NCBI GenBank assembly: GCA_947494705.1
Contig: CANLVN010000002.1
Location: 248,001 to 312,000, forward strand
From: an uncultured Erythrobacter sp.
Lineage (GTDB): Bacteria; Pseudomonadota; Alphaproteobacteria; Sphingomonadales; Sphingomonadaceae
Reading direction: 5' to 3'
DNA: 64,000 nt
The translations under genes and the position numbers were made by a program. Shown in pieces: positions 7,738 through 23,517 of this stretch. The notes under the pieces were generated by a model. It worked only from the letters and a program-made list of their open reading frames with translations. It had not been told where the DNA came from and did no database searches. Position 1 is the stretch's first letter. Each line of letters opens with the position of its first letter.

Positions 7738-7796
7738 GCATCGCTTTTTGCGCGCAACCTGACCTTGGCGCAACAAAAAGCGCTTTTGCAAACACC

Positions 7797-7821
7797 TAAC
7801 AGCAATTGTCATAGCCGTGAC
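7797..7821 (+). promoter_or_regulatory. shared 25-bp upstream element, copy 1 (Slam gene)
   Basis: Begins TAACAGCAATTGTCATA and ends CGTGAC. It matches the copy at 13949-13973 at 23 of 25 positions. It contains GTCA-N6-TGAC, a short inverted repeat. It lies 81 bp before the Slam start codon; copy 2 lies 75 bp before the CsgG-like gene. The matching placement suggests an operator or promoter element recognised by one regulator, possibly the OmpR-type protein encoded at 15112. Confidence 0.55.
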
Positions 7822-7902
7822 GACGCTTGTCAGGGGACAGTTTCTGGCGCCCGCGCCATCTGTGCTTCCGAAAAGTATTTCAGCTTCGGGGGCCAGCATT
7901 CC

Positions 7903-9201
7903 ATGACTCGCATATTCCACGCTTCCTTTGGCACAGCTTTGTTTGGCGCTGCCGCGCTACTCCTGCCGAACGCCGCCGTGGCGCAGCAGGCAGACGAGGC
8001 CCAGGCCGAAGCCGCCTATCAATCGCTCGCCGCCCAGACGCCAACGCGCGCTGGCGATCCGGCCTTCGACTACGAACTCGGGATTGCCGCGCTCGATGCG
8101 GGACGCTTTGGCGAGGCAATCATCGCCTTTCAGCGCGTCCTCGCGGTACAGCCCAACAACGCCGCCGCCCGCGCCGAACTGGCCCGCGCCTATGCCTTGG
8201 CAGGCGATATCGACACGGCGCGAGAGCAATTCGCTACCGTGGTCGACGACCCGAGCCTGCCCGATCCGGTGCGTCAGCGCTTCACTGGCTTCGTACGCCA
8301 GTTCGACCGTGCAATTGGCGGAGGTGGCTCGGATGTCAGCGGTTTCGTCGATGCGAGGGTCGGCTATGATGACAATATCAACACGGCGACCGAGCAGGGC
8401 CAGATCACGATCCCTCTGTTCAGCTTCCTCGGGCCGGGTCAGCTTGGCGCGGGCGCGGTGGCGCAGAGCGACGAGTTCTACGACATCACCGCAGGCATTT
8501 CAGGCGTAACCGCGATCGGTCGCCAGGACCGCCTGTTCGCGTCGGCTCTGGGCAATTGGCGCGACAACCTCTCCAGCGCCGCCTTCGATCAAGCCGCTCT
8601 GACAGGCACAGTGGGTTACGCGCACACTTTCGCCAATCGCGACGTCGTCTCGATCTCGGCGCAGGCGCAGCAATTCTGGCTCGACGATGACGGCTTCCGC
8701 TCTGCGGTCGGGGCGATTGCGCAATACACCAAGCCGCTGGCGCGCGGGCAGGCGCTCAACCTCTCGGCGCAGTGGAACCGGCTCAATTTCGACAACGATC
8801 CGCTGCGCGATGCCGACCGCTTTGCTGTCGGTGTCGGATTGGTCGGCAAGGTATTCGTCGCCAATCTCACCGGCGGCAAGGAAGAGACCCGACGTCAGGC
8901 AGGCGATGCACAAAGCTTCACCTTCGGTTCGGTCAATGTCGGGGCCGAAGTGCCTGTCTCGTCCCGTGTCGCGCTTGTGGGCGGCGCAGCATTCGATCTG
9001 CGCCGCTACGATACCGAAGACGCGCTGTTCCTGACAGAGCGGCAGGACGAACGGCTGGACCTGCGCGGCGGGATCAAGCTTGCCATCACCGACCAGATCT
9101 TCCTCCAGCCCAGCGCCTCCTACACGCGCAACTGGAGCAACATTGCCCTTTTCGATTTCGATCGCTGGACCGTCTCGGTCGGCGCGCGCCTTGAATTCTG
9201 A
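7903..9201 (+). CDS. Slam-like outer-membrane protein (TPR plus DUF560 beta-barrel; type XI secretion)
   Basis: Predicted surface lipoprotein assembly modulator family member, 432 aa. A signal peptide (residues 1-23, ending AVAQ) is followed by TPR-like helices at about 45-130 (FGEAIIAFQRVLAVQPNNAAARAEL is the clearest repeat; positions approximate). A beta-barrel domain runs from about 145 to the C-terminal Phe, opening with a VGYDDNINTAT strand like the GYDSNVN strand of Slam proteins. Slam proteins move TbpB-like barrels across the outer membrane. The next gene, 19 bp on, encodes exactly such barrels, which supports the call. The start at 7903 is chosen because it gives the signal peptide; the frame is open upstream. 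A generic TPR-plus-porin protein is the alternative. Confidence 0.8.
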   Translation: MTRIFHASFGTALFGAAALLLPNAAVAQQADEAQAEAAYQSLAAQTPTRAGDPAFDYELGIAALDAGRFGEAIIAFQRVLAVQPNNAAARAELARAYALAGDIDTAREQFATVVDDPSLPDPVRQRFTGFVRQFDRAIGGGGSDVSGFVDARVGYDDNINTATEQGQITIPLFSFLGPGQLGAGAVAQSDEFYDITAGISGVTAIGRQDRLFASALGNWRDNLSSAAFDQAALTGTVGYAHTFANRDVVSISAQAQQFWLDDDGFRSAVGAIAQYTKPLARGQALNLSAQWNRLNFDNDPLRDADRFAVGVGLVGKVFVANLTGGKEETRRQAGDAQSFTFGSVNVGAEVPVSSRVALVGGAAFDLRRYDTEDALFLTERQDERLDLRGGIKLAITDQIFLQPSASYTRNWSNIALFDFDRWTVSVGARLEF

Positions 9202-9220
9202 TTGCCTCGGGGGACCAGAC

Positions 9221-12200
9221 ATGACTGCCATCGCCACCACTCGCTCACCTTTTGCCAAGCTGCTGTTGATCGGCGCATCGAGCCTTGCGCTCGCCATGCC
9301 AGCCGCCGCGAACGACGTGATCTTCAGTTCGACCGGCGACGAGCCGCAAGCCGGCCAGCGCACGATCCAGACGGAGGGTGTCACCCAGATCGCGCTGACC
9401 AGGGGAGGCACCGTCTCGATCTCGCAGGCCGCCGAATACACCCTCAATGCCGACGGCTCGATCGACCTCCATCGAGGCTCGATCACTGTTGTGGGTGCAG
9501 ATGGAGCGAACGTTATCATCCGCATGCCCAAAGGCCTTCAGGCATCAGTCGCCGGCGAGTCCTCGGCCAGCTTCAGCGTTGCCAATGACGGCGAGGCGAG
9601 CGGCCACACGATGACCGGCGAGGTCATGGTCGGCCAGACCGGCCGCGCCCAGCGCTCGTTCAGGGACGCGACCATGTGGAAAGCGCGTCCGGGACGCGGC
9701 CCGCGCATGGCCATAGCCAATCCAGCAGTGAGCCAGCCGTCCACCAACCCCGTTGCCGCTCCGAACCAGGTAATAGCAATCAGCGGTGATGCAGGGCCAG
9801 TAGCTGCAGCCCTCAACGGCATCCCGGTAACGCTGGGTGAAAACCTGGCAGGCGCTGGCGCATCGGCGGACATCGTCGCTGCCGCAACACGGGTCGAAGT
9901 CGCCGCACAGAACCCGGTACTCGAGACCTTCCCGACCGGCGACCTTGCCGCACTTGTTTCAGCCGCTGTCGAACTCGAAACCCTTTATGGCGGCAGGCCA
10001 TTCAACGCGGCGCAGGCCGACATCATCCGCACCTATCTGCGATTCCTGGCAAGTGGCGCATCGGGGGCAGACTTCCTGTCCGCATACGGCGCCTTCCTCA
10101 CTCAGTATCTCGACCTGATCCGTGACGGCGGAGTTCCCAGCAACTTCGAGAGCGGAGTTGCCGATGTCGTGACGATCAACGCCTATCTGAACTTCATCGC
10201 TCGCAGCGGAGCCATCGCAAACCTCTCCGCCGACGACCGCCAGCTGGTCGAAGACTATCTTGCCTTCCTGGCCGATGGCGGAAGCCCGGACGAATTCGCT
10301 GCAACGTTGAACTTCCCGGATTTTGCGGGCTTCACCGCTTCGCTCACCGCCTATGCGGACTTCCTCGAAAATGGTGGGCTTCCATCGGACTACGACGCGC
10401 AGGACATAGCCGATTTGCAGGCTTTCTATAGCGCGCTGGTGCAGGCAGGACAGGCTAACGACCGCTTGGCCGGCGATTTCGACCTGCTGTCGGCCTACTT
10501 CACTTTCCTCGGAAGCGGGGGCGCCGTTGACGGGTTCGCAGGCCTGCCGATCTATGCCGACTATGCAACCGCGCTTTCTGCCTACGCGCAGTTCCTCGCC
10601 GCGGGCAATTTGCCGAGCGACTACACAGCGCTCGATATCACAGTCCTCGACGCCTATCTCGCGGCGCTGGCCGCGCTGCCGGGTGGAGCGGTTGGATTTG
10701 ACGCGATTGCTGCCGATCAGGCTGCGCTGCTCAAAGCCTATTTCGCGTTCCTCGGAAGTGGCGGCACGATCGACGGTTTTGCAGGCCTACCGATCTATGC
10801 CGATTACGCAGGCGCGCTGTCGGCCTATGCCGAATTCCTCGCCGCAGGAAACCTCCCAAGCGATTATGCGGCACTCGATATTGCAACCCTTCAAGCCTAC
10901 CTTGCCGCGCTTGCTGCCTTGCCGGTCAACCTGACCGACTTTGACGGCCTCGATGGCGATGAGGCAATGCTTCTCAACGCCTATTTCGCCTTTTTGGCGG
11001 GCGGCGGCGATGTCGATGGCTTTGCAGCGCTTCCGATTTACCTGGACTATATCGCGGCGCTGAATGCCTATTTCGCTTTCCTGTCGAATGGCGGTCTGCC
11101 GAGCGAATACACGGAACTCGACCTGGCCGTGATCGAAGCCTATCTCGCCGCGCTCGATGCGCTCGATGGCGGGCTGGGCGGCTTTGACGACCTTGCTGAC
11201 TTCTTCGAAGACTACTTCGCCTTCGTAGAGGGCGGAGGCAATCCGAACCAGTTCCCCGGGCTTCCGGGCGCATCCAGCCCTGTACTCAACAATGCCGTGC
11301 TGGCTCTCGTTTCGCGGAACGGGTTTGATAACCGGACAGGCGTAACCGCCGAGATCGAGCCCGATGGGCAAATCACTGCTGTCACCGGCTCCGATACGGT
11401 CCGTACCGACTATACAGCGGCTGGCGACACCCTGCGCGAACGCGGGCGGATTGGCGACATCGTCGCATGGACCCGGTATGAGCGCGGCGCTTCGGCGGGA
11501 GGTGTCACGAATTTCAACACACACCTCGTGGTCGGCCAGCCAGCCTTCGATTTGCCAGCGAGCGGGCTGGTCCTGTATGACCTGATCGGCGGAACCGAAC
11601 CTACCGATGCATTCGGTGAAGAGGGTTCAACCGGCTTCTTTACCGGCCAACTGGGCGTCGCCTTCGGTGCCTCTCCGACCATCGGAATGAATTTCGATAT
11701 CTACGCCGGGTCGCGCGGCTGGAATGCATCGACCAACGGCGGCGCGGATAACGCCGCAAGCGGCGGCATCTCGATCGATGCGGACAACACGTTTTCGCTT
11801 GGGCTCTTGACGACGGGCATCACGGACAATGCCTGCTTGGACGGATGTTCAACGACCGTGACTGGCGGGCTATTCGGAGATGACGCGAGCCATGTCGGCC
11901 TCACCTACTTCCTTCAGGACAGCCCGGGCAGTGTCGGTCAAAGTCTCGTCAACGGTGTAGCGATCTTCGGCACGGAGGGCACTGCAATCGACGGGCTGGG
12001 CACCCGGCCCGACACTGGCGGAGGGACCGGCACCGATCCATTCGGCCCCGGCGGGCCAACGCTGACCTATACGGGCGGTTTCAACGGCAATGGCACAGGA
12101 CTTTTCGTTCAAGCCACCGCACAGCCGTCCGGCAACGATCCGTTCCTCATCAGAGAACTAATCCAGGGAACGGCGCTGGACGCCATTCTGGACAATGATG

Positions 12201-13915
12201 GCGGGCTTGATCGCTATCGCACGAATGTCGGTACGACCTACAATCGCTTTGATCGTGGAACAGCGAAAGTCGAAGACATTTCAGGCAATGCCGATGTGCT
12301 TATCGGTCGCTGGACGGATGGTGAATACAAGCAGCAATCAACATCCGCATCTCAGCCACAAACCTACTTGCTGAGCGCGAATCAGGGCTTTCATTACATG
12401 CTCTCGGATGGCTTCGTCGGCGCTGCGGCATTCCCGGTCGGACGTATTGAATACGACCTGCTGGCAGCCACGCGGCCCACGACCTTCGATGGATCGCTTG
12501 CACCGGGTACCTTTACCGCCGATGCGGCGATCATCTTCGGGTCCGCCCCGGCAATTGCAATCGAGGGTCAGATCGCTTTCGATGGCCTGGCCTACACCTT
12601 CGCAACGCCCGGCGGGGTTGCTGGTGATGGTCGGCCACTGACCATCAGCGGTCAGGCCGGCTCAACCCCCGGCGGCTATTTCGGTTTCAGGGTGGACGGC
12701 ACGACCGATGATGGCCGCAGCGGCCCGATCTTCTTCGACGCGCGGATGTCCGATGCGCAGGGCAGCTCGTTTGGCACCGTCTACCGTGCAGAAATCTCCA
12801 ACCCCACGACCGGGGCCGACTTCAACGCGCTGCTGGGCGCGGCGATCTTTGGAGCGGTCGACACAGGCGGCGGCGGGAATGGCGGCGGATCTGGCGGAAC
12901 CGGCTTTACCGGCACACGATCGAACCAGGTGTATTACGCCTATCTCGATGGCTCGCTGAACACCGGTTTCGGAGGCTCCGCAGATTTCGTGGATGGCGAG
13001 ATTACCGGGCTGTCATCGATAATCGGCACGGTGACCAACAACGATGCGAGCATCGTCGAAGCCACCGATCTCGAAGAAATCGCATGGGCGCGGTGGACCG
13101 GTGGGACCGTTCAGTCTTCAGGGCTCTTCGGCGATGTCGATTATCCCGTTGGAGCAAATGGCGGCTATCACGTCATGACCGGCGAAGCGACCACCACCCT
13201 TCCCGGCGGTACGATCGCCTACGAATTGATCGGCGGCACCTCCGCCACCGACAATCAGGGGTCGGCACCTGGCACGGTAACCGGAGATCTTGCGATCGCT
13301 TTCGGTTCGACCAGCCTCGTCGGATACGACCTGAGCATGGCGGTCGGCGGGCGCAGCTGGGCGGTGTCGACACCCGGCGGTGCAGCCAATCCCGCTGCAA
13401 GCAACATCAACCTCGTGATTGGCAGCGGCGTGTGGACCTTCGGCGGCACATTCACCAGCACCTCGAACACCGTAACTGCCGGTGGCAACGCGTGTTCGGC
13501 AACGTGCATCGTCAATATCGGCGGCGTCCTTTATGGTGACAATGCGGCCTATGCCGGGGTGGCCTTCAACGTTACCGATGCGAGCAATTCGGCGACTGTG
13601 GGCGCCTCGGGCCTGGCGATCTTCGGACAGGAGGGGGGCACGGCAAGCGCGATCGCTCCCTCGATCATGGCAGCGCCAACCGCGTCGGTTGGAGACTGGA
13701 GCCGGTGGTCGGGCACGCAATCCACCACGACTGATGTGTTCGAAGAGGGTAGGGGCGGCATTGTCGGAAGCGCGATGAGCGCTACCCTCGCCGACCCGTC
13801 CTCCTCACATTTGGACGCAGATGCCTTGGCGGACGGTCAACGTGCCGTTGCCATCGAACGAGCGCAGCAGATGTTTGGCGGCTCGATCACCTGGCCTTCC
13901 GATCTGGGGCGCTGA
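9221..13915 (+). CDS. giant exported protein: FecR-like domain, helical repeats, three TbpB-like barrel modules
   Basis: 1564 aa with a signal peptide (residues 1-29, AMPAAAN) and no lipobox Cys. Domains seen: FecR-like beta domain at about 38-130; helical repeats at about 265-690, including three units of exactly 81 aa (422-502, 503-583, 584-664) built on AYFAFLGSGG and GLPIYADY; barrel modules at about 745-915, 1028-1212 and 1288-1470. Modules 1 and 3 carry G-L/Y-FG-DxA-x3-G, close to the FYGPxAxExGG motif of TbpB-type barrels, and a CxxxC pair (872/876 and 1425/1429); module 2 is diverged and lacks both. A Gly-rich linker precedes module 3. Downstream of and probably co-transcribed with the Slam gene (GGGGGACC upstream of the ATG), so it is the likely Slam cargo. 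Ligand unknown. The frame is open back to 9080, but the start at 9221 gives the signal peptide. Confidence 0.8.
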   Translation: MTAIATTRSPFAKLLLIGASSLALAMPAAANDVIFSSTGDEPQAGQRTIQTEGVTQIALTRGGTVSISQAAEYTLNADGSIDLHRGSITVVGADGANVIIRMPKGLQASVAGESSASFSVANDGEASGHTMTGEVMVGQTGRAQRSFRDATMWKARPGRGPRMAIANPAVSQPSTNPVAAPNQVIAISGDAGPVAAALNGIPVTLGENLAGAGASADIVAAATRVEVAAQNPVLETFPTGDLAALVSAAVELETLYGGRPFNAAQADIIRTYLRFLASGASGADFLSAYGAFLTQYLDLIRDGGVPSNFESGVADVVTINAYLNFIARSGAIANLSADDRQLVEDYLAFLADGGSPDEFAATLNFPDFAGFTASLTAYADFLENGGLPSDYDAQDIADLQAFYSALVQAGQANDRLAGDFDLLSAYFTFLGSGGAVDGFAGLPIYADYATALSAYAQFLAAGNLPSDYTALDITVLDAYLAALAALPGGAVGFDAIAADQAALLKAYFAFLGSGGTIDGFAGLPIYADYAGALSAYAEFLAAGNLPSDYAALDIATLQAYLAALAALPVNLTDFDGLDGDEAMLLNAYFAFLAGGGDVDGFAALPIYLDYIAALNAYFAFLSNGGLPSEYTELDLAVIEAYLAALDALDGGLGGFDDLADFFEDYFAFVEGGGNPNQFPGLPGASSPVLNNAVLALVSRNGFDNRTGVTAEIEPDGQITAVTGSDTVRTDYTAAGDTLRERGRIGDIVAWTRYERGASAGGVTNFNTHLVVGQPAFDLPASGLVLYDLIGGTEPTDAFGEEGSTGFFTGQLGVAFGASPTIGMNFDIYAGSRGWNASTNGGADNAASGGISIDADNTFSLGLLTTGITDNACLDGCSTTVTGGLFGDDASHVGLTYFLQDSPGSVGQSLVNGVAIFGTEGTAIDGLGTRPDTGGGTGTDPFGPGGPTLTYTGGFNGNGTGLFVQATAQPSGNDPFLIRELIQGTALDAILDNDGGLDRYRTNVGTTYNRFDRGTAKVEDISGNADVLIGRWTDGEYKQQSTSASQPQTYLLSANQGFHYMLSDGFVGAAAFPVGRIEYDLLAATRPTTFDGSLAPGTFTADAAIIFGSAPAIAIEGQIAFDGLAYTFATPGGVAGDGRPLTISGQAGSTPGGYFGFRVDGTTDDGRSGPIFFDARMSDAQGSSFGTVYRAEISNPTTGADFNALLGAAIFGAVDTGGGGNGGGSGGTGFTGTRSNQVYYAYLDGSLNTGFGGSADFVDGEITGLSSIIGTVTNNDASIVEATDLEEIAWARWTGGTVQSSGLFGDVDYPVGANGGYHVMTGEATTTLPGGTIAYELIGGTSATDNQGSAPGTVTGDLAIAFGSTSLVGYDLSMAVGGRSWAVSTPGGAANPAASNINLVIGSGVWTFGGTFTSTSNTVTAGGNACSATCIVNIGGVLYGDNAAYAGVAFNVTDASNSATVGASGLAIFGQEGGTASAIAPSIMAAPTASVGDWSRWSGTQSTTTDVFEEGRGGIVGSAMSATLADPSSSHLDADALADGQRAVAIERAQQMFGGSITWPSDLGR
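10484..11212 (+). repeat. three tandem 243-bp repeats inside the giant gene
   Basis: Matching Leu-Leu or Met-Leu codons fall at 10484, 10727 and 10970, giving an exact 243-bp (81-codon) period. Units share AYFAFLGSGG, DGFAGLPIYADY, ALSAYAQFLAAGNLPSDY and AYLAALAALP. Units 1 and 2 are nearest in sequence; unit 3 has drifted. Each unit contains two related half-units of about 40 residues, and weaker copies extend upstream to about 10020 and downstream to about 11260. Confidence 0.9.
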
Positions 13916-13948
13916 ATGACGCACGAATAGCAGGGCAGATCGCCGGCA

Positions 13949-13973
13949 TAACAGCAATTGTCATATTCGTGAC
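13949..13973 (+). promoter_or_regulatory. shared 25-bp upstream element, copy 2 (CsgG-like gene)
   Basis: Differs from the copy at 7797-7821 only in two adjacent bases (TT here, GC there). In this copy the inverted repeat is a full TGTCA-N6-TGACA. It lies 75 bp before the start of the CsgG-like gene and 33 bp after the stop of the giant gene, so it points to a separate transcript starting here. Confidence 0.55.
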
Positions 13974-14048
13974 AGGCGGTGTGTGTGGTCAGGTTTCGCG
14001 AAACGCGCAAGTCTCCGACCCACTGATACGCAATGGGGAGTACTACCG

Positions 14049-14939
14049 ATGAAGAATGCATTTTTGCGCGCAACCTGCGGCCTTGCCATGGTCGCCGCGT
14101 TGTCCGCCGCCGTCGCACCGGCACCGGCCTTCGCCAAGAAGGGCGATGTGGAGCTCGTCACTTGCGAGGAAAGCCTCGGCACGATCGCCGTGGTCGATGG
14201 CGACACGCAGGGCTGGGCAGAATATGACCTGGGCAGCCCGCGAGCCCTCATCAACACGCTCGCTACCGAAAGCGGCTGCTTCACACCGCACAGTACGGCA
14301 TCGGGCGTGCCAGCAGACTTCCTGATGAACGTGGTCGCCGGCAGCAGCGAAGAGGTCGACCAGTCGATTGAAGTCGCCAAATCCGCAGCGATGGAAGGGC
14401 TCGTTCGTTCGGGCGCTGCATCCTCGATGCTCAGCCGGGTTCCCGGAGCAGGCGCCGTGCTGGGCATGTTCGGAGGCTTTGGCGGCAAGAAGAAACGGCT
14501 TGCTGCCGGTATCAAGCTGCTCAGCCCGATGAACGGCATGACCATCGTCACCGGACAGGGCGTTGTGAAGAAGAGCACGCTCAATTTCCGCGGCGCAGGT
14601 GCCTGGACCGCCGGAGCGCAGGCCGCTGGTTATGGCGACAGCAAGAATGGCAAGATGCTGGTCGAGGCCTTTATCCTCGCCTTCAACGATGTCGTAGCTC
14701 AGGAAGCCGTCATCGCATCGGTGCCAAAGGCGCAGCCCGCAGCAGCCGCCGAGCCCTCCTACGCAACGGTTGCGACGGCAACGTCGATGATGGCCACGCC
14801 CGCCGCCGACGGCGAAGTGGTGCGCGGCCTGATGGTCGGCACGACGCTCAGCCCGACCGGCAAGCGCGAAGGCCTGTTCGTCGAGGTCGAAGATAATTTC
14901 GGCACGAAGGGCTGGGTAAGCGTCGAGGCGCTCAATTAA
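14049..14939 (+). CDS. exported CsgG-like protein with C-terminal SH3-like domain
   Basis: 296 aa with a signal peptide (residues about 1-30, ending APAFAKKG). The early part (GTIAVVDGD, ALINTLATESGCFT) and middle part (GMTIVTGQGVVKKSTLNF, then NGKMLVEAFILAFNDVV) resemble the CsgG/HfaB family of outer-membrane secretion or anchoring proteins. The mature N-terminus lacks a lipobox Cys, so it is not a standard CsgG lipoprotein. The last 50 residues (VGTTLSPTGKREGLFVEVED, GWVSVEALN) look like a bacterial SH3 fold. The start at 14049 gives the signal peptide; the frame is open to 13983. It sits between the Slam cargo gene and a two-component pair and shares an upstream element with the Slam gene. 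The family call is tentative. Confidence 0.55.
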   Translation: MKNAFLRATCGLAMVAALSAAVAPAPAFAKKGDVELVTCEESLGTIAVVDGDTQGWAEYDLGSPRALINTLATESGCFTPHSTASGVPADFLMNVVAGSSEEVDQSIEVAKSAAMEGLVRSGAASSMLSRVPGAGAVLGMFGGFGGKKKRLAAGIKLLSPMNGMTIVTGQGVVKKSTLNFRGAGAWTAGAQAAGYGDSKNGKMLVEAFILAFNDVVAQEAVIASVPKAQPAAAAEPSYATVATATSMMATPAADGEVVRGLMVGTTLSPTGKREGLFVEVEDNFGTKGWVSVEALN

Positions 14940-14984: not shown

Positions 14985-15111
14985 GATTGTGCGCGCTTGC
15001 AGGGACATCACGATCATGGCAGCATTTCGCGCGACGCCTCACGGACAGCAGCCCGTTCGGCATGAAGGGCTTCCCGCGATGCAAACGGGCGGCGCACAGG
15101 GGGAAGTGGCA

Positions 15112-15804
15112 ATGGCGAACCCGCAGCTCAGGATCCTCTATGTCGAAGACGATGCGCGTTCGGCAAGCGCGGTGAGCGAAGTCGCTTCGAACAACGGCGA
15201 CGCACTGGTATGGGAGGAAACGGGCGGCGCAGCGCTGCTGAGGGCGGGAATGGAAGCCTTTGACGTTATCATCCTCGACCGGATGCTGGGCGATATGGAC
15301 GGGCTCACCATCACTCGGCGATTGCGCGAAAGCGGGATCGGCACGCCGATCCTCATGCTCTCCGCTCTGGGACGAAGTTCCGACCGCGCCGATGGACTCG
15401 ATGCGGGCGCGGACGATTACATGGCAAAGCCATTTGAGCCGCAGGAACTGATGGCCAGGCTGCGTGCACTGCACCGCCGCTCCGCAGGAAAAGAGCACAG
15501 CGCGGTGATCATCTACGGCGCTTTCGAATGCCATCTCAAGGCACGCACCGCCTTTCGCCACAACCGCCATCTGCCCCTCAGCCCCAAGGAATTCGACCTG
15601 TTCCGCTACTTCATGGAGAATGCGGGAGAGACGGTCACGCGCGAGATGTTGCTGCGCGATGTGTGGAAGATGGATTTCGACCCGCAGACCAATGTTGTCG
15701 ACGTGAATATCGGGCGACTGCGCCGCAAGCTCGAAGACGGTTTTCAAAGCCCTGCTCTCGAAACGATCTGGGGCTCGGGCTATCGCATTCTCGAAGGGAA
15801 GTGA
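15112..15804 (+). CDS. OmpR-family response regulator
   Basis: 230-aa DNA-binding response regulator. The receiver domain (residues 1-120) has acidic residues in YVEDDAR, phosphoacceptor Asp56 in ILDRMLGDMDG, the conserved Ser/Thr position in MLSALG and Lys in AKPF. The C-terminal winged helix (about 130-228) has LSPKEFDLFRYFMENAGE and the VDVNIGRLRRKLE recognition helix. The start at 15112 follows GGGGGA at good spacing; the frame is open to 14989, so ATG 15079 is an alternative. Its TGA overlaps the GTG of the kinase gene, so the two are translationally coupled. Likely regulator of the neighbouring Slam and CsgG-like genes, by context only. Confidence 0.92.
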   Translation: MANPQLRILYVEDDARSASAVSEVASNNGDALVWEETGGAALLRAGMEAFDVIILDRMLGDMDGLTITRRLRESGIGTPILMLSALGRSSDRADGLDAGADDYMAKPFEPQELMARLRALHRRSAGKEHSAVIIYGAFECHLKARTAFRHNRHLPLSPKEFDLFRYFMENAGETVTREMLLRDVWKMDFDPQTNVVDVNIGRLRRKLEDGFQSPALETIWGSGYRILEGK

Positions 15805-17147
15805 AAATCGAAGCGCGGCGGTCGATCTTTTCGCGCATCGTCCTGGCGGCGATCGGCCTGTCGGTCGTCCTGGTGCTGGCGCTGTGGTTCGTGACTCATC
15901 AGACCATCGGGGCGACGCTCGACGAGGGCGCGCAGAAGGAAATCGACGTCGATATTGCCGGACTGGTGGATATTTACGCCACCGGCGGCCTGCCCGATCT
16001 GCAACAGCGCATTGCAGACCGCATTGCGCTCACTCCGTCAGAAGGCAACACGCCGCATTACCTGCTCGCCAACGATGCCGGTAAAGTGATCGCAGGCGAC
16101 CTCGCCAGGTGGCCCGATCTCGATCCGATGATTTCCGAATCGGGCAGGATCACGTTGGGCGAAAATTCGGAAGGGTTTGCGCGCGCAGTCCAGCTCGGCC
16201 CCGACCTGCGCATGACAGTGGCGCGCCGGATCGAGAACAACACGGCCGTGCTCGACAACGTGGCGCTTGCCTTCGGCGTGGGCGGAGCGGTGTTCGTACT
16301 GCTGGTGGCGCTGCTGGGTCGGATCGCGGCAATCGGACTTCAGCGCCGCATTGGAGAGATCAATCTCGCCTTCCGCGATCCGGAGAAGCACCGCGAAGAG
16401 CTGAGCGCGTTCTCGCCAGTCGAGAACGCGGACGAGATCGACGAGCTGACCGCCCACAGCGCCGCCGCGCTAACGCGGCAGCGTTCGTTGATGGAAGCCT
16501 ACAAGGAGACAAGCGAACAACTCGCACACGAAATGCGCACCCCGCTTTCGCATCTCGACAATCGGCTGATCAAGGCACTGGAGGCTGGCCCTTCGCCCGA
16601 AGTCGGAGAGCGGTTGGTAGAGGCGCGGACCGAGATCCGGCGGCTGGTGCAAACGCTCGAATCGCTCCTCGACATCGCCGCGAGCAAGACCCGGCGCGGC
16701 GACCGTGCCGGACTCGAACCGGTCGATTTCAGCGACATGGTCGCGCGGATTTGCGAGCTTTATGCAGGCAGCGCGGAAGAGACAGGATACGAACTGGTCT
16801 GGGACGTCGAACCCGGCGTCATCGTCGACGGCGATGGCAGTCAGCTGAGCCGGTTGGTCACGAACCTGCTCGACAATGCGCTCAAATATGTGCCGCCGGG
16901 TGGTCGGATCGCGGTTTCGCTGGCAGCCGGGCCCGTCCTGGTGGTCGCCGACAACGGCCCCGGCATCGCGCCCGCCGACCGCGCGCGCATATTCGAGCGA
17001 TTCTATCGTGGGCGCTCGAACCCGGGGAGCGATGAGCATGGCAGCGGGCTGGGCCTCGCTCTGGCCCGCGCAATTGCAGAGAGGCATGGGCTCACGTTGA
17101 ATCTGGACGATACCGACAGGGGAGCGAGCTTTCGGTTGCAACCGTGA
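15801..17147 (+). CDS. sensor histidine kinase, partner of the OmpR-type regulator
   Basis: 448 aa, with a GTG start overlapping the regulator's stop by 4 bp. Membrane segments at about 9-31 and 155-178 enclose a periplasmic sensor region of some 120 residues. A HAMP-like linker leads to the HisKA domain with phosphorylated His243 in LAHEMRTPLSHLDNRL, then a HATPase_c domain with the N box NLLDNALKYVP, G1 DNGPGI and G2 GSGLGLALA. It should sense an envelope or periplasmic signal and phosphorylate the regulator encoded upstream. The sensed signal cannot be read from the sequence. The longer open frame to 15528 is antisense-like overlap with the regulator gene and was rejected as a start. Confidence 0.9.
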   Translation: MKIEARRSIFSRIVLAAIGLSVVLVLALWFVTHQTIGATLDEGAQKEIDVDIAGLVDIYATGGLPDLQQRIADRIALTPSEGNTPHYLLANDAGKVIAGDLARWPDLDPMISESGRITLGENSEGFARAVQLGPDLRMTVARRIENNTAVLDNVALAFGVGGAVFVLLVALLGRIAAIGLQRRIGEINLAFRDPEKHREELSAFSPVENADEIDELTAHSAAALTRQRSLMEAYKETSEQLAHEMRTPLSHLDNRLIKALEAGPSPEVGERLVEARTEIRRLVQTLESLLDIAASKTRRGDRAGLEPVDFSDMVARICELYAGSAEETGYELVWDVEPGVIVDGDGSQLSRLVTNLLDNALKYVPPGGRIAVSLAAGPVLVVADNGPGIAPADRARIFERFYRGRSNPGSDEHGSGLGLALARAIAERHGLTLNLDDTDRGASFRLQP

Positions 17148-17207
17148 TCCGAAGCGTCGAGTTTCTATGGTGTGATGTCGCCGCCCGTCGCTCAATTAGG
17201 AAAAGAG

Positions 17208-17804
17208 ATGATGAAAAGACTGCGCTCAATTTCCGCCCCGCTGACCATGCTCGCGCTGGTCGTGACAGCCTGCGCGCCGGTCGTTCCCGTGGCCCAGGCC
17301 TCCGATGAAGCCGCAACGCGTGCAGACCGTGTGGCCGAAGCTCTCGCCCAAGCAGAAGCCGCGCACGATAGCGGCGCTCACGACCAGCTGTCAGAGCTTA
17401 TCGCGGCGCTGCAAGCCAGCGGCGCTGCCCCGCAAGGCGAGGGCGAGGCGGATCTCGTTGCGCAATGGTCGAAGAGCGCGGGGATCGAGAGCCTGCCATA
17501 TCGTGGTCGGTTGCTCGGCCCGGCCTATGTGCGCGGCGAGCTCGCGCCGGGTGAAAGCTGGCGCAGCGCGCAGACTTTCAAATCGGGTGTGCCGTCGACC
17601 CTTGCCGTTTCGCACAGGGGCGCAGGGCCGGTTCGCATGCGAGTTTCCGACCAGAGCGAGCACCTCGTTTGCGCGGCGAACGAAGCGGCCAACGGGGCTG
17701 CAAAGCCAGCCTGCCGCTTCACTCCGCTCTACACCCAGCGATACGATATCGAACTGAGCAATGAGGGGCCGGGACGAGCGGTCTATTTCCTCGTCTTCGA
17801 CTAG
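17208..17804 (+). CDS. putative lipoprotein of unknown function
   Basis: 198 aa, opening with tandem ATGs preceded by AGGAAAAG. The N-terminus is a lipoprotein signal: basic start, hydrophobic stretch and VTAC with the modifiable Cys at about residue 22. After it come an Ala/Glu-rich helical part (DRVAEALAQAEAAHDSG) and a C-terminal half that looks beta-rich (GPAYVRGELAPGESW to YDIELSNEGPGRAVYFLVFD), with two Cys that could pair (LVCAANE, KPACRFT). I do not recognise the family. It lies 60 bp after the kinase gene on the same strand and may belong to the Slam/CsgG neighbourhood; whether it shares their transcript is unknown. Confidence 0.75.
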   Translation: MMKRLRSISAPLTMLALVVTACAPVVPVAQASDEAATRADRVAEALAQAEAAHDSGAHDQLSELIAALQASGAAPQGEGEADLVAQWSKSAGIESLPYRGRLLGPAYVRGELAPGESWRSAQTFKSGVPSTLAVSHRGAGPVRMRVSDQSEHLVCAANEAANGAAKPACRFTPLYTQRYDIELSNEGPGRAVYFLVFD

Positions 17805-17885: not shown

Positions 17886-18560
17886 TTAGTTTTCGCGCGT
17901 TCCCGTGACCACGTACAGCATTTCCTGCGCGATGTTCGTGGCGTAGTCGCCGACACGTTCGAGCTGTTTGCCGATCGAGATGATTTCGACCCCGTGGCGC
18001 ACCTTGAGATGACCGGCATCCATCGCCTCGATACAGGATTCGACGAGGTTGCGGTTCATTCCATTGAGCTCCGCATCGTCACGAATGACCTGCTCGGCGG
18101 TTTTGGCGTCGGACGTGTTGAAGCTCTCGATGGACCGTTCGACCATGTCGCTGGCATAGCGGGCCATCGTCCGGATCAAGGTAAGGTCCTTGGCGATCTC
18201 GCCCGGCTCGATCCCCTTCACACGGCGGGCGATCCGCTTCGCCTGGTCGCCGGTACGCTCAAGCATGGTGCCGATGCGGATCGCGACGATGAGATAACGC
18301 AGGTCTTCGCCCATCGGTCCACGCGACGTGATGATCAGGTTGACGAGCCGCTCCAGGGACAGTTCGAGCTCGTCGATCCGCTTGTCATTGGCAACGATGG
18401 CTTTTGCAGCGTCATGATCGGCCGTCTCCAGCGCAACAAGAGCGTCGCTGAGCGAACGCTGCGCCAGATCGGCCATCCCGTTAATCGTCGAACGGACCTC
18501 TGCAAGCTGGAGGTCGTAGGAGGAAACGGTATGCGGACGGTCGAGTACAGAAGGTTTCAT
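17886..18560 (-). CDS. phoU: phosphate signalling protein PhoU
   Basis: 224 aa, made of two similar three-helix PhoU domains. Metal-binding E/DxxxD-type stretches are visible in both (RIGTMLERTGDQAKRIARRV in the first, IGKQLERVGDYATNIAQEM in the second). PhoU links the Pst phosphate transporter to the PhoR kinase and represses the Pho regulon when phosphate is plentiful. No pst, phoB or phoR gene is next to it here, unlike the usual pstSCAB-phoU-phoB order. The ATG at 18560 begins MKPSVLDRPHTVSSYD, a common PhoU start; the frame is open to 18683 but lacks family similarity. Confidence 0.93.
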   Translation of the reverse strand: MKPSVLDRPHTVSSYDLQLAEVRSTINGMADLAQRSLSDALVALETADHDAAKAIVANDKRIDELELSLERLVNLIITSRGPMGEDLRYLIVAIRIGTMLERTGDQAKRIARRVKGIEPGEIAKDLTLIRTMARYASDMVERSIESFNTSDAKTAEQVIRDDAELNGMNRNLVESCIEAMDAGHLKVRHGVEIISIGKQLERVGDYATNIAQEMLYVVTGTREN

Positions 18561-20573: not shown

Positions 20574-21992
20574 CTATGCCGTTACGGCACCGCGACTCCC
20601 GCCCGGCCGATCGTGTCGGCCAGCGCGACGCCGGTCGCGATCACCCGTCGGATCGGGGTCTGTTTCCCTTTCGCCGAGGGGTTTTGCCGATTCGAGCCGG
20701 GCGACATAGGAATGCAGCCCGATCTGCAGCCCCACGATCATGAGCATCACAGGCTGGTATGCAATGCCCTGAAACAGCGCTCCGGCAAGATAGATCAGGC
20801 TCGCGATCTGCAGTGCGGCGGCAAGCGGGGAAATCCAGGCCTCGCTCTCGGCGGTTGCGCCTTTCCATCGGCGATAGGTCCGCTCCATCTGCCACACGCC
20901 CAATCCATGCAGCAGGAGCCAGATCGCGAGACCGGGATAGCCCTGCTCGCCCAGAAGTTCGAAGATCGCCGAGTGGAAAGCGCGCGCTTCGTCTGTAACT
21001 TCGCGATACTCGACACTGACTGTGTTGCCGAGTTCTTCCCTGACCGGCATGCGGTAGGTGAAGGAATTGGAACGGTAGCTGTCGAAACCGCCGCCAAACG
21101 GATGCTCCTCGACGTAATCGAGCGTCCATTGCCAAACCTGCATCCGTGTCGAAGCACTCTCGTCACCGCCGGGCTGGGCGATGGTTGCCATCCGGTCGTA
21201 ATAGCTTTGCGGCAAGAAAGGCAATGCGGCCAGCCCGATCGCGCCAGCCGCCGCCATCACGAGGAACCGCCGCTGGGTGTAGCGCAGCAAGAGAACGCCC
21301 AGCACCGCGATGCAGACAAGTCCCGTGCGCGCCTCGGTCCCTACCGGGATCAGCAGGCAGGCGAACACGAGCGCAACAGCGAACAGGTTCACGGTCCAGT
21401 GCGGGCGGAACACAGTGCCATAGCGAGTGAACCAGAATATCATCGGAATGAGCGCAATGGCCACCGTTGCCAGCGTCGAGCTTTCGTAAATCCCGCTATT
21501 GTCGTTCACGAGGAAATGCAGGCTTTCATAGCCTCCGCCGCCCAAAATCGTCTTCATCCCGGTTCCGATCACGATGGTCGCAACCGACAGGGTCAAAGTC
21601 AGCGCTAGCGCTTCAATCCGAGCACGGGTCGTAAGGGTCAGCGGCAGGAAGATCGCAAACAACAACGCCTTCCACACCCAGTCCCACTTGGTCGAGGCCG
21701 GTTCGGGGAAGTCGGCCCACGACAGCGTCCAACCGCAATAGAGCAACAGCGCCAGCATCAGGAATTGTCGCAAGGTAAAGCGGGCACCCTCCTTGCGATC
21801 GAGCACCAGCCAACCACCGAAAGCGGCAGCGAAGGCTATCAGCGAGACCGGGACCGACGTAATGAGACCGTAACCGATCCGCTGCGGCGCCACGATGTCG
21901 ATGTAAACGTACAGCAGCACCCACAGGTAAGGGCGCCTCAGGCCCAGCATCAGCACATAGCCGATAAATGCGATGAGGATCAGGTCGATCAC
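20574..21992 (-). CDS. O-antigen ligase-like protein (putative O-glycosylation ligase, exosortase A associated)
   Basis: 472-aa polytopic inner-membrane protein with about 10-12 hydrophobic helices and a long central loop holding EHPFGGGFDSYRSN, the Wzy/WaaL-type ligase region. The opening (MLGLRRPYLWVLLYVYIDIVAPQRIGYG) matches the putative O-glycosylation ligase family found with exosortase A. It would transfer an undecaprenyl-linked glycan to an acceptor. The last 45 residues are charged, rich in Arg and Asp, and probably cytoplasmic. It starts with GTG, which overlaps the stop of the small upstream gene by 4 bp. No exosortase gene is in the window. Confidence 0.85.
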   Translation of the reverse strand: MIDLILIAFIGYVLMLGLRRPYLWVLLYVYIDIVAPQRIGYGLITSVPVSLIAFAAAFGGWLVLDRKEGARFTLRQFLMLALLLYCGWTLSWADFPEPASTKWDWVWKALLFAIFLPLTLTTRARIEALALTLTLSVATIVIGTGMKTILGGGGYESLHFLVNDNSGIYESSTLATVAIALIPMIFWFTRYGTVFRPHWTVNLFAVALVFACLLIPVGTEARTGLVCIAVLGVLLLRYTQRRFLVMAAAGAIGLAALPFLPQSYYDRMATIAQPGGDESASTRMQVWQWTLDYVEEHPFGGGFDSYRSNSFTYRMPVREELGNTVSVEYREVTDEARAFHSAIFELLGEQGYPGLAIWLLLHGLGVWQMERTYRRWKGATAESEAWISPLAAALQIASLIYLAGALFQGIAYQPVMLMIVGLQIGLHSYVARLESAKPLGERETDPDPTGDRDRRRAGRHDRPGGSRGAVTA

Positions 21993-22186
21993 GGCATTTG
22001 CCGATCGGTTCGGGCCCGCCGCTTCGCATTGCGTCCCGCAGCGCTGGTCGCCTCGCGCCCCGCCTTGTTTTCCTGCTTGAGCTCTTCGATCGCCGGGTCG
22101 CTGTCGACATCCTCGCGCATCACCAGCCGCAACAGCGCAAGCGCCAGCAGGCCATGACCAATCGCGAGGGAAATGTAGTCGATCAT
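21989..22186 (-). CDS. small membrane protein upstream of the O-ligase gene
   Basis: 65 aa: one hydrophobic helix (YISLAIGHGLLALALLRLVM, residues 4-23) followed by a charged tail (EDVDSDPAIEELKQEN, then Arg/Lys-rich). Its TGA overlaps the GTG of the ligase gene, so translational coupling argues that it is real. I do not recognise the family; it probably accompanies the exosortase-associated ligase. Confidence 0.7.
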   Translation of the reverse strand: MIDYISLAIGHGLLALALLRLVMREDVDSDPAIEELKQENKAGREATSAAGRNAKRRARTDRQMP

Positions 22187-22251
22187 CGAATGCCCCTTAC
22201 GCGCGCGGAGTTGACGCCGCGTTAAGCACGCTTGCGCTAAGGCATGGCCCC

Positions 22252-23517
22252 ATGACCCGGATTCTCCATGTCCTCGACCATTCGCTGCCGCTCCATTCCG
22301 GCTATACCTTTCGCACGCGCGCCATCCTGAAGGCGCAGGAGCAACTCGGCCTCGAGGTGCGCGGGCTGACTTCGCAAAAGCACAACGCCGAGGCCGATTG
22401 GGAACAGACGAGAGAGGTTTTCGACGGCCTCACATTCCACCGCACGCCCCGAATATCGGGCGGTCCGGCAGGCTTGCGCGAATTGCGCGAGATGGCCGCG
22501 ACCTATCGTGCGATCCGCGCCCTGGCCAAGGAGTGGCGGCCCGATATCATCCACGCCCACTCGCCCGCCCTCAACGGTGGAGGTGCATTGCGCGCAGCGC
22601 GCTCGCTCGGCATCCCGCTCGTCTACGAAATCCGGGCCTTCTGGGAAGATGCCGCAGTCGGCAATCGCAGCGGCACGCACGGCTCCGCCAAATATCGCCT
22701 CACCCGCAGCCTGGAAACGCAGGTGGCCAAGTCCGCCGATGCGCTTTTCACGATCTGCAACGGCCTGCGCGACGATCTGATCGCTCGCGGCATTCCCGGT
22801 GGGCGCATCGGGGTGATGCCAAATGGCGTCGACCTGACCCTGTTCGGCGAGCCGGCGCCGCGCGACACGGCCCTCGCGCAGGAACTGGGCATCCCCGACG
22901 GCGCGCCAGTGATCGGCTATATCGGCAGCTTTTACGATTACGAAGGTCTCGACGACCTGATCGCGGCAATGCCGATCCTGCGCAAAACCCATCCGGATGC
23001 GCGCCTGCTGCTCATTGGCGCGGGCGAGATGGAGCACGAATTGCGCGCCGCTGCCTCGGCGCTGCCCTGCAAGGATGCGATCCTGTTCGCAGGCCGCGTG
23101 CCGCATACCGAGGTGGAGCGCTATTATTCGCTGATCGACGTCCTCGCCTATCCGCGTAAGGCTTCGCGCCTTACCGACCTTGTCACGCCGCTCAAACCTC
23201 TCGAAGCGATGGCGCAGCGGCGCATCGTCGCCGCGTCCAATGTCGGCGGACACCGCGAACTTATCACTCATGGCAAAACCGGGTTCCTTTTCGCGCCCGA
23301 CGATCCGCAGAGCTGCGCCGCGACGCTCTCCGAAACACTCGATGCACGTGAAGGATGGGACGCGGTGCGCCAAGCGGGGCTTGCTCATGTGCGCACGCGA
23401 CATGACTGGGCCAAAAATGCGCGTCGTTATCTCGACGTTTACCATCACTTGTTAACGCAGGGCGAAAGCGTGGAAAGCCTTGCGGCGTCCGCGCACCAAC
23501 ACGGTCTGCAGGCATAG
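22252..23517 (+). CDS. GT4-type glycosyltransferase, exosortase A system-associated
   Basis: 421 aa with a GT-B fold. The opening RILHVLDHSLPLHSGYTFRT is characteristic of the glycosyltransferase family that accompanies exosortase A/PEP-CTERM EPS loci. The N-terminal acceptor domain has DIIHAHSPALNG; the C-terminal donor domain has GVMPNGVDLTLF, IGYIGSFYDYEGLDDLI and the PLKPLEAMAQRRIVAASNVGG sugar-nucleotide site with its EX7E-like glutamates. It is divergent from the ligase/small-protein pair, with a 65-bp gap likely holding both promoters. The donor sugar is not identifiable. Confidence 0.88.
   Translation: MTRILHVLDHSLPLHSGYTFRTRAILKAQEQLGLEVRGLTSQKHNAEADWEQTREVFDGLTFHRTPRISGGPAGLRELREMAATYRAIRALAKEWRPDIIHAHSPALNGGGALRAARSLGIPLVYEIRAFWEDAAVGNRSGTHGSAKYRLTRSLETQVAKSADALFTICNGLRDDLIARGIPGGRIGVMPNGVDLTLFGEPAPRDTALAQELGIPDGAPVIGYIGSFYDYEGLDDLIAAMPILRKTHPDARLLLIGAGEMEHELRAAASALPCKDAILFAGRVPHTEVERYYSLIDVLAYPRKASRLTDLVTPLKPLEAMAQRRIVAASNVGGHRELITHGKTGFLFAPDDPQSCAATLSETLDAREGWDAVRQAGLAHVRTRHDWAKNARRYLDVYHHLLTQGESVESLAASAHQHGLQA

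Follow-up and report, generated by a model that had tools for sequence, protein, structure and literature searches.

A predicted type XI secretion pair with a long, multi-barrel cargo and a probable two-component regulator in an Erythrobacter genome

How would a member of the Sphingomonadaceae export a protein of 1,564 amino acids with three barrel modules, and what would tell the cell when to do so? The question is raised by two adjoining genes, a predicted outer-membrane secretor and its predicted cargo, in a 64,000-nucleotide stretch of DNA (the window) from an uncultured Erythrobacter sp. (assembly GCA_947494705.1, contig CANLVN010000002.1, positions 248,001 to 312,000). We consider it likely that the two genes encode a secretion pair of the type XI secretion system (T11SS, or Slam) kind, in which TbpB-like modules of the cargo are the probable secretion signal, and that the neighbouring two-component system probably controls the pair.

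Both genes lie on the forward strand. The secretor gene runs from an ATG at 7903 to a stop codon ending at 9201 (432 amino acids) and the cargo gene from an ATG at 9221 to a stop codon ending at 13915, which leaves 19 nucleotides between them, exactly as the initial annotation of this DNA had placed them. The window genome holds one match to each protein, and the closest matches of the pair come from Qipengyuania, Erythrobacter and Porphyrobacter. The co-occurrence of the two genes in relatives, proposed earlier as a check, is borne out by 36 related loci: the cargo gene stands directly 3' of the secretor gene in 34, with a gap of −1 to 32 nucleotides to the first ATG, and the other two (L033 and L034) end at a contig edge. 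Furthermore, an order-wide sample of 296 genomes, searched at E < 1e-50 for the secretor and E ≤ 0.001 for the cargo, contains the secretor in 13 genomes, a cargo match in 12, and both, adjacent by coordinates, in 11. One of the 13 secretors sits at a contig end (G256); another (G253, locus L040) matches only secretor residues 9-183, has no cargo match and is likely to be the decaying remnant of a pair. A weak match to the cargo N-terminal domain, with stops, is present in G139, where there is no secretor match. T11SS of the canonical kind is widespread in the order: PF04575 (DUF560) and PF01298 (TbpB-type barrels) are found in 63 and 41 of the 296 genomes, respectively, at E ≤ 1e-5, and each in none of 14 control genomes.

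What marks the larger protein as a likely T11SS cargo? It carries three handle-barrel modules, located by a family hidden Markov model (HMM) and by their AlphaFold fold: module 1 at residues 736-925 (11426..11995), module 2 at residues 1021-1216 (12281..12868) and module 3 at residues 1278-1474 (13052..13642). That these are real repeats, as annotated at the outset, is confirmed by pairwise matches within the cargo (residues 690-935 and 1240-1564, E 3e-28; residues 935-1240 and 1240-1564, E 4e-17; residues 690-935 and 935-1240, E 5e-9) and by the family HMM, which finds all three. The G-L/Y-FG-DxA motif that had been ascribed to the modules fared less evenly: module 1 has the full motif, module 3 a near match (GGVLYGDNAAYAG), and module 2, in which it has degenerated and been lost, also has no CX3C pair of the kind seen in the other two. 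These pairs (Cys 872/876 in module 1 and Cys 1425/1429 in module 3) are the only cysteines of the cargo; the pair is seen again in many of the aligned modules of the family and might form a disulphide or a metal site. The AlphaFold models match a TbpB-like handle with an eight-stranded barrel, the fold that had been predicted. With Foldseek, 15 of 15 matches at E ≤ 0.001 are, by title, known cargo folds (TbpB, LbpB, fHbp, NHBA, HpuA or haemophilin), and the same is true of all of the best 50 matches listed by VIA-align. A profile of the modules also matches local PF01298 TbpB-type barrels at E 7.3e-7, against 0.3-0.5 for controls. When PDB sequences were queried with either protein or with profiles of the modules and the FecR-like domain, only TPR designs and chance matches came back. 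By the family HMM, all 113 cargo homologues hold at least one module, and the number per protein ranges from 1 to 5. Beyond module 3, a low-confidence C-terminal tail (13643..13912) carries a W-R-W and GG-I-T/S-W/F motif; a regular expression for this motif finds 62 of the 113 homologues and misses the window cargo, and we gave it no weight.

Between its N-terminal region and the modules, the cargo has a putative stalk at about residues 235-689 (9923..11287). The long repeat region noted originally is present here as 81-amino-acid (243-bp) tandem repeats, of which one count gives three copies, at 10484, 10727 and 10970, and another gives two; the region is helical as far as its sequence predicts; PF02899, a helical SAM-like family, is found in 13 of 28 cargo homologues at E ≤ 1 (best 2e-10). 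Across 32 loci the stalk varies from 224 to 1,026 amino acids. Such variation, together with that in module number (1 to 5), resembles that of adhesins, and it could be argued that the 1,564-residue protein is a surface adhesin of the ordinary kind, that the TPR-barrel protein is its dedicated exporter, and that the modules bind rather than signal secretion. Four homologues (P0151, P0161, P0207 and P0229) are indeed labelled 'trimeric autotransporter adhesin' by their Joint Genome Institute source, a label that finds no support in the barrel modules. However, at least one module is kept in every one of the 113 homologues, a short relative (L041) retains a FecR domain and a single C-terminal module, and profile and fold evidence place both modules and secretor in T11SS families; thus we consider the adhesin explanation unlikely.

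The reading as a T11SS pair leaves the question of what stands at the other end of the cargo. Its first residues look, by inspection, like a Sec-type signal peptide (9221..9310) and, as first annotated, no lipobox is present. A lipobox-like string occurs early in the hydrophobic core of 11 of the 113 homologues and in 1 of 34 locus cargos; we read these strings as probably due to chance, and a minority of the family may be lipidated. The segment that follows, residues 31-155 (9311..9685), is a predicted FecR-like domain, defined by a family HMM, PF04773 and hhalign. The family HMM for this domain is found in 112 of the 113 homologues. When 28 N-terminal domains were scanned alone (matches listed to E ≤ 10), PF04773 was found in five (best 2.6e-4) and Cupin_3 in six (best 0.0088), and in whole cargos, 28 of which were scanned at E ≤ 1, neither PF04773 nor PF01298 was found in any. 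In hhalign, the N-terminal domain aligned with canonical FecR domains at a probability of 48 and E 1.9e-4, against a probability of 0.2 and E 0.31 for the control. In L041 (genome G076), an open reading frame (ORF) of 560 amino acids exceeds the PF04773 cut-off (38.4 bits versus 24), has one C-terminal module and adjoins a PF04575 secretor; judged by these predicted domains, it is a minimal form of the same cargo design. The FecR-like assignment, made by eye at first, is therefore supported by the five N-terminal domains, L041 and hhalign, as a remote relationship.

A FecR-like domain near a histidine kinase and a response regulator might also suggest FecR-type cell-surface signalling, with the domain as a periplasmic sensor arm and the barrel as an outer-membrane receptor. 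We think this quite improbable, as neither a sigma factor nor a TonB receptor is found among the neighbouring ORFs that were scanned (part of the window's genes), and the kinase unit occurs elsewhere without the pair.

Is the smaller protein, then, the secretor of such a cargo? It has a signal peptide by inspection, TPR helices at residues 25-138 and a predicted 14-stranded barrel at residues 144-431; its AlphaFold model (predicted local distance difference test score, 78) shows TPR helices and 14 long strands. TPR_16 and TPR_19 exceed their cut-offs in a Pfam scan of the protein, and TPR_Slam, which is under its cut-off here, is found at E ≤ 0.01 in 44 of the 46 members of the secretor family, one of which is the window protein. 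At the same threshold PF04575 matches 20 of the 46. Two distant relatives, L041 and L043, exceed the PF04575 cut-off of 22 bits (44.2 and 40.6 bits), and homology to PF04575 is also seen at the close secretors of G117, G053, G047, G254 and G076. The VGYDDNINTAT strand that had been picked out is present at residues 153-163. The DUF560-type barrel claimed with it is supported by the 14 predicted strands and by the relatives that match PF04575, the window protein itself giving no match to that family. When the two window proteins were themselves scanned against Pfam and NCBIfam, neither was called as a Slam barrel, TbpB or FecR, and no Slam structure is among the PDB structure matches listed for the secretor model. 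That the TPR-barrel protein is instead a polysaccharide exporter or porin of the PgaA, BcsC or PelB kind, with its neighbour reaching the surface by another route, is highly improbable: the top Foldseek match is E. coli cellulose synthase subunit C, with PelBC at rank 20, PF04575 is common to some PgaA homologues according to passages of PMC8406197, and the generic barrel families PF13505 and PF11059 are found in 41 and 43 of the 46 family members versus 20 for PF04575, but 14 long strands are predicted here against 16 for PgaA in those passages, no polysaccharide synthase is among the scanned neighbours adjoining the pair (a glycosyltransferase and an O-antigen ligase lie farther away, at 20574-23514), and the secretor is consistently paired with a TbpB-type barrel protein.

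If the T11SS reading of the pair is accepted, what controls it? Downstream, on the same strand, lies a two-component locus that falls outside the coordinates of the initial annotation, in which its link with the pair is absent. It encodes an exported SH3_3-like protein (14049..14939; signal by inspection, C-terminal domain under the Pfam cut-off), an OmpR/PhoB-type response regulator (15121..15804; PF00072 and PF00486 over cut-off, start provisional, the ORF opening at 14989), a sensor histidine kinase (15798..17147; PF02518 over cut-off, start provisional) and a predicted small lipoprotein (17172..17804; VTAC lipobox by inspection). In the 36 related loci we found the regulator in 31, the kinase in 31, the lipoprotein in 26 and the SH3-like protein in 19. 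The regulator gene is downstream on the same strand in 18 of these 31 loci, downstream on the other strand in eight and upstream in five, and the protein is 61-88% identical to that of the window in 28. Of the five loci that have no regulator, one (L016) has full flanks and four (L020, L033, L034 and L038) have a right flank cut by the end of the contig. Genes just 5' of the pair served as controls: DUF4126, 2OG oxygenase and PHB depolymerase were found in none of the 36 loci (36, 36 and 34 of which, respectively, were long enough). The ABC transporter gave one match in the 36, at 34% identity. Thiolase and O-antigen ligase were likewise found in none, but lie at or beyond the 10-kb reach of the flanks and were left out as controls. 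At E ≤ 1e-60, 25 genomes of the order-wide sample of 296 contain the kinase. Eight of them are among the 13 with a close secretor, and there the coordinates put kinase and pair on one contig, no more than about 5 kb apart; the association of kinase and close secretor has a Fisher p of 8e-7 with kinship ignored.

A link at the DNA level is given by a promoter element that precedes both units. One copy, a predicted operator, lies 5' of the secretor gene (7796..7834, forward strand) and has the half-sites TAAC, TGTC, TGAC and TGTC about 10-11 bp apart; the second (13948..13986, forward strand) lies 5' of the unit encoding the SH3-like protein, regulator and kinase. The two have a 25-nucleotide repeat in common that is 92% identical, and the window contains two occurrences of the pattern TTGTCAN6TGACR, where 0.01 would be expected. 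A spacing of about 11 bp is the usual geometry of half-sites for OmpR/PhoB-type regulators. When the two upstream regions were compared at each of 17 loci, including the window, the best shared stretch beat all 60 shuffles in 10, and a TAAC/TTGTCA-type stretch was the best shared one in 13. Upstream of the secretor, the consensus CTAACNGCNNTTGTCAT reaches a score of 11 or more out of 14 in the window and in 31 of the 36 loci, and the reversed pattern in none of the 37, counts that are partly circular. Across 29 promoters, after look-alike flanks had been dropped, the element holds 1.25 bits per column versus 0.07 for the left flank, in an alignment whose columns were anchored on the element; further half-sites follow 3' of it at a spacing of about 11 bp. 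The element also varies with the regulator: all 28 loci whose regulator shares 60% identity or more have it 5' of the secretor, and the three with a divergent regulator do not. Among loci with no regulator, L016 has an element score of 10, and three of the four cut stretches have the element, L020 being the one without. We conclude that the regulator probably controls the pair through this shared element.

The exact element 16-mer occurs twice in the window genome, both times at this locus. A match to the element is found somewhere in 42 of 296 genomes, and to the reversed pattern in 20 by the count of matches listed, so that single matches elsewhere mean little. A third copy of TTGTCAN6TGACR in the genome lies, by eye, in a TonB-receptor-like coding sequence, and we attribute it to chance. 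Five genomes from another family of the order (G027, G072, G075, G081 and G098), all without a close secretor, each contain the identical 16-mer TAACTGCCGTTGTCAT a single time, which possibly reflects another regulon of a related regulator. A generic scan for sigma-70 promoters and terminators did no better than shuffles.

From these parts a working model can be proposed. A signal, presumably one relevant to the cargo, would activate the histidine kinase, and the OmpR-type regulator would then bind the half-sites at 7796 and 13948 so that both units are transcribed. The cargo would cross the inner membrane via Sec; the TPR domain of the secretor would hand the C-terminal handle-barrels into the barrel, and these would fold outside, with the repeat region serving as spacer and the FecR-like domain forming an N-terminal head. 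As it has no lipobox, the cargo would probably be released or held non-covalently. In a bolder version, which we regard as distinctly unlikely, the T11SS would be signal-gated: the two-component system would sense an envelope or surface cue, the giant cargo would leave C-terminus first, the FecR-like head would remain in the periplasm as a non-lipid plug and anchor, and the stalked barrels would report bound ligand to the same kinase. Among T11SS genes, known regulators are Fur for tbpB and NilR/Lrp for nilBC; the locus offers a candidate dedicated two-component regulator for a T11SS, and one that is testable. It also asks, in a non-pathogen setting, how a very long, unlipidated, multi-barrel cargo passes a 14-stranded barrel and which of its barrels signals.

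Several observations weigh against the pair being a T11SS under the control of this two-component system. The window secretor itself goes unmatched by PF04575 and is not among the 20 family members that match it; similarly, the window cargo matches neither PF01298 nor FHBP_C in Pfam, and among 50 modules PF01298 is found in two (best E 0.062), with the unrelated PLCC stronger in two (0.005). The AlphaFold models are of the modules, whose placement relative to one another is uncertain (predicted template modelling score, 0.45), and the FecR-like and repeat regions rest on sequence; the family HMM for the N-terminal domain reaches the FecR domain of L041 at E 0.087 only. The element consensus was drawn from some of the loci that it then scored, and relatives are not independent. 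In three of the 31 loci with a regulator (L027, L029 and L030) this protein is 37-39% identical and may be unrelated. Finally, kinase and close secretor also occur apart: at E ≤ 1e-60, five of the 13 close-secretor genomes (G047, G076, G199, G253 and G256) have no kinase, and 17 other genomes have the kinase but no close secretor. The link is therefore not obligatory. In stretches of about 17 kb from 11 of these 17 kinase-only genomes, no secretor, module or N-terminal-domain match was found, and an element score of at least 12 was found near the regulator unit in nine of the 11, the reversed pattern scoring 10-11 there. We infer that, within a single branch of the order, the secretion pair was brought into the regulon of a two-component unit that already existed and was probably autoregulated.

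How does the locus compare with known systems? TbpB, fHbp, NHBA and HpuA are lipidated binders of host ligands with one or two barrels; the modules here are predicted to share their handle and eight-stranded barrel, but the window cargo carries three barrels and is without a lipobox. The haemophilins HphA, Hpl and HrpC (8gmm, 7re4 and 6om5) are non-lipidated handle-barrel proteins like the window cargo, but of about 250 amino acids and one barrel, compared with 1,564 and three. FecR regulators (PF04773) share the FecR-like domain, which in the cargo heads a protein with a putative export signal and barrels and has no sigma factor or receptor among the scanned neighbours. As with Slam1 and Slam2 (PF04575, DUF560), we find TPR helices, a predicted 14-stranded barrel, an adjoining cargo gene and homology through relatives; unlike them, the window secretor falls under the PF04575 model, and it stands out by its link with a two-component system and by a promoter element that is conserved.

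The initial annotation had taken a non-lipidated, modular cargo as potentially a new class, a claim that proves weaker than stated. Passages of PMC12282271 describe about ten cargo architectures, including 'Sphingomonas surface proteins' (18 lipidated and 12 soluble), and soluble as well as multi-barrel Slam cargo; passages of PMC8406197 report soluble cargo with one barrel and a subcluster, 1C, of Sphingomonadaceae. The 'Sphingomonas surface proteins', found by barrel similarity, are as here from sphingomonads, have two to three handle-barrel pairs and are in part soluble, according to the same passages of PMC12282271, which give them N-terminal proline-threonine repeats. The window cargo has no such repeats in its sequence, its FecR-like N-terminus being followed by the 81-amino-acid repeats, and its family differs further in having 1 to 5 modules whose barrels have diverged beyond the reach of PF01298. 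In the main texts of PMC12282271 and PMC8406197 (supplements aside), the words FecR, Erythrobacter, two-component, histidine kinase and response regulator are absent. In the titles and the beginnings of abstracts of the papers listed, with supplements and most subscription papers outside the scope, no such locus is described, and passages of the reviews PMC13391677, PMC13243786, PMC13113151 and PMC12607715 treat T11SS in overviews only, with no mention of FecR. The FecR-headed, repeat-stalked architecture is thus not found in the literature searched. As described in parts of PMC12282271 and PMC8406197, those surveys rely on PF04575 and on barrel domains already known to detect cargo. The present family mostly escapes PF01298 and in part PF04575, but its neighbourhood and fold suggest the same machinery, so that counts of T11SS in sphingomonads are probably too low.

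Some minor observations concern the surroundings of the locus and its relatives. None of the 25 best NCBIfam names for the regulator, or for the kinase, is over its cut-off, and matches to BAC, SslE and TonB, also under cut-off, were set aside. Pho-regulon control, considered in view of the PhoU gene at 17886, was rejected: PhoU is found in none of the 36 loci, which is weak evidence, as 11 of the 15 loci with a same-strand downstream lipoprotein extend far enough to reveal it. The SH3-like protein stays with the kinase unit in loci without the secretion pair (L092-L095, L098 and L101, and weakly L099). At L057 (7292-9946), beside a relative of the secretor, an 885-amino-acid protein with PF01298 and FHBP_C matches and an N-terminal TonB-like match under cut-off is a likely T11SS cargo that may belong to the 'Sphingomonas surface proteins' of the literature.

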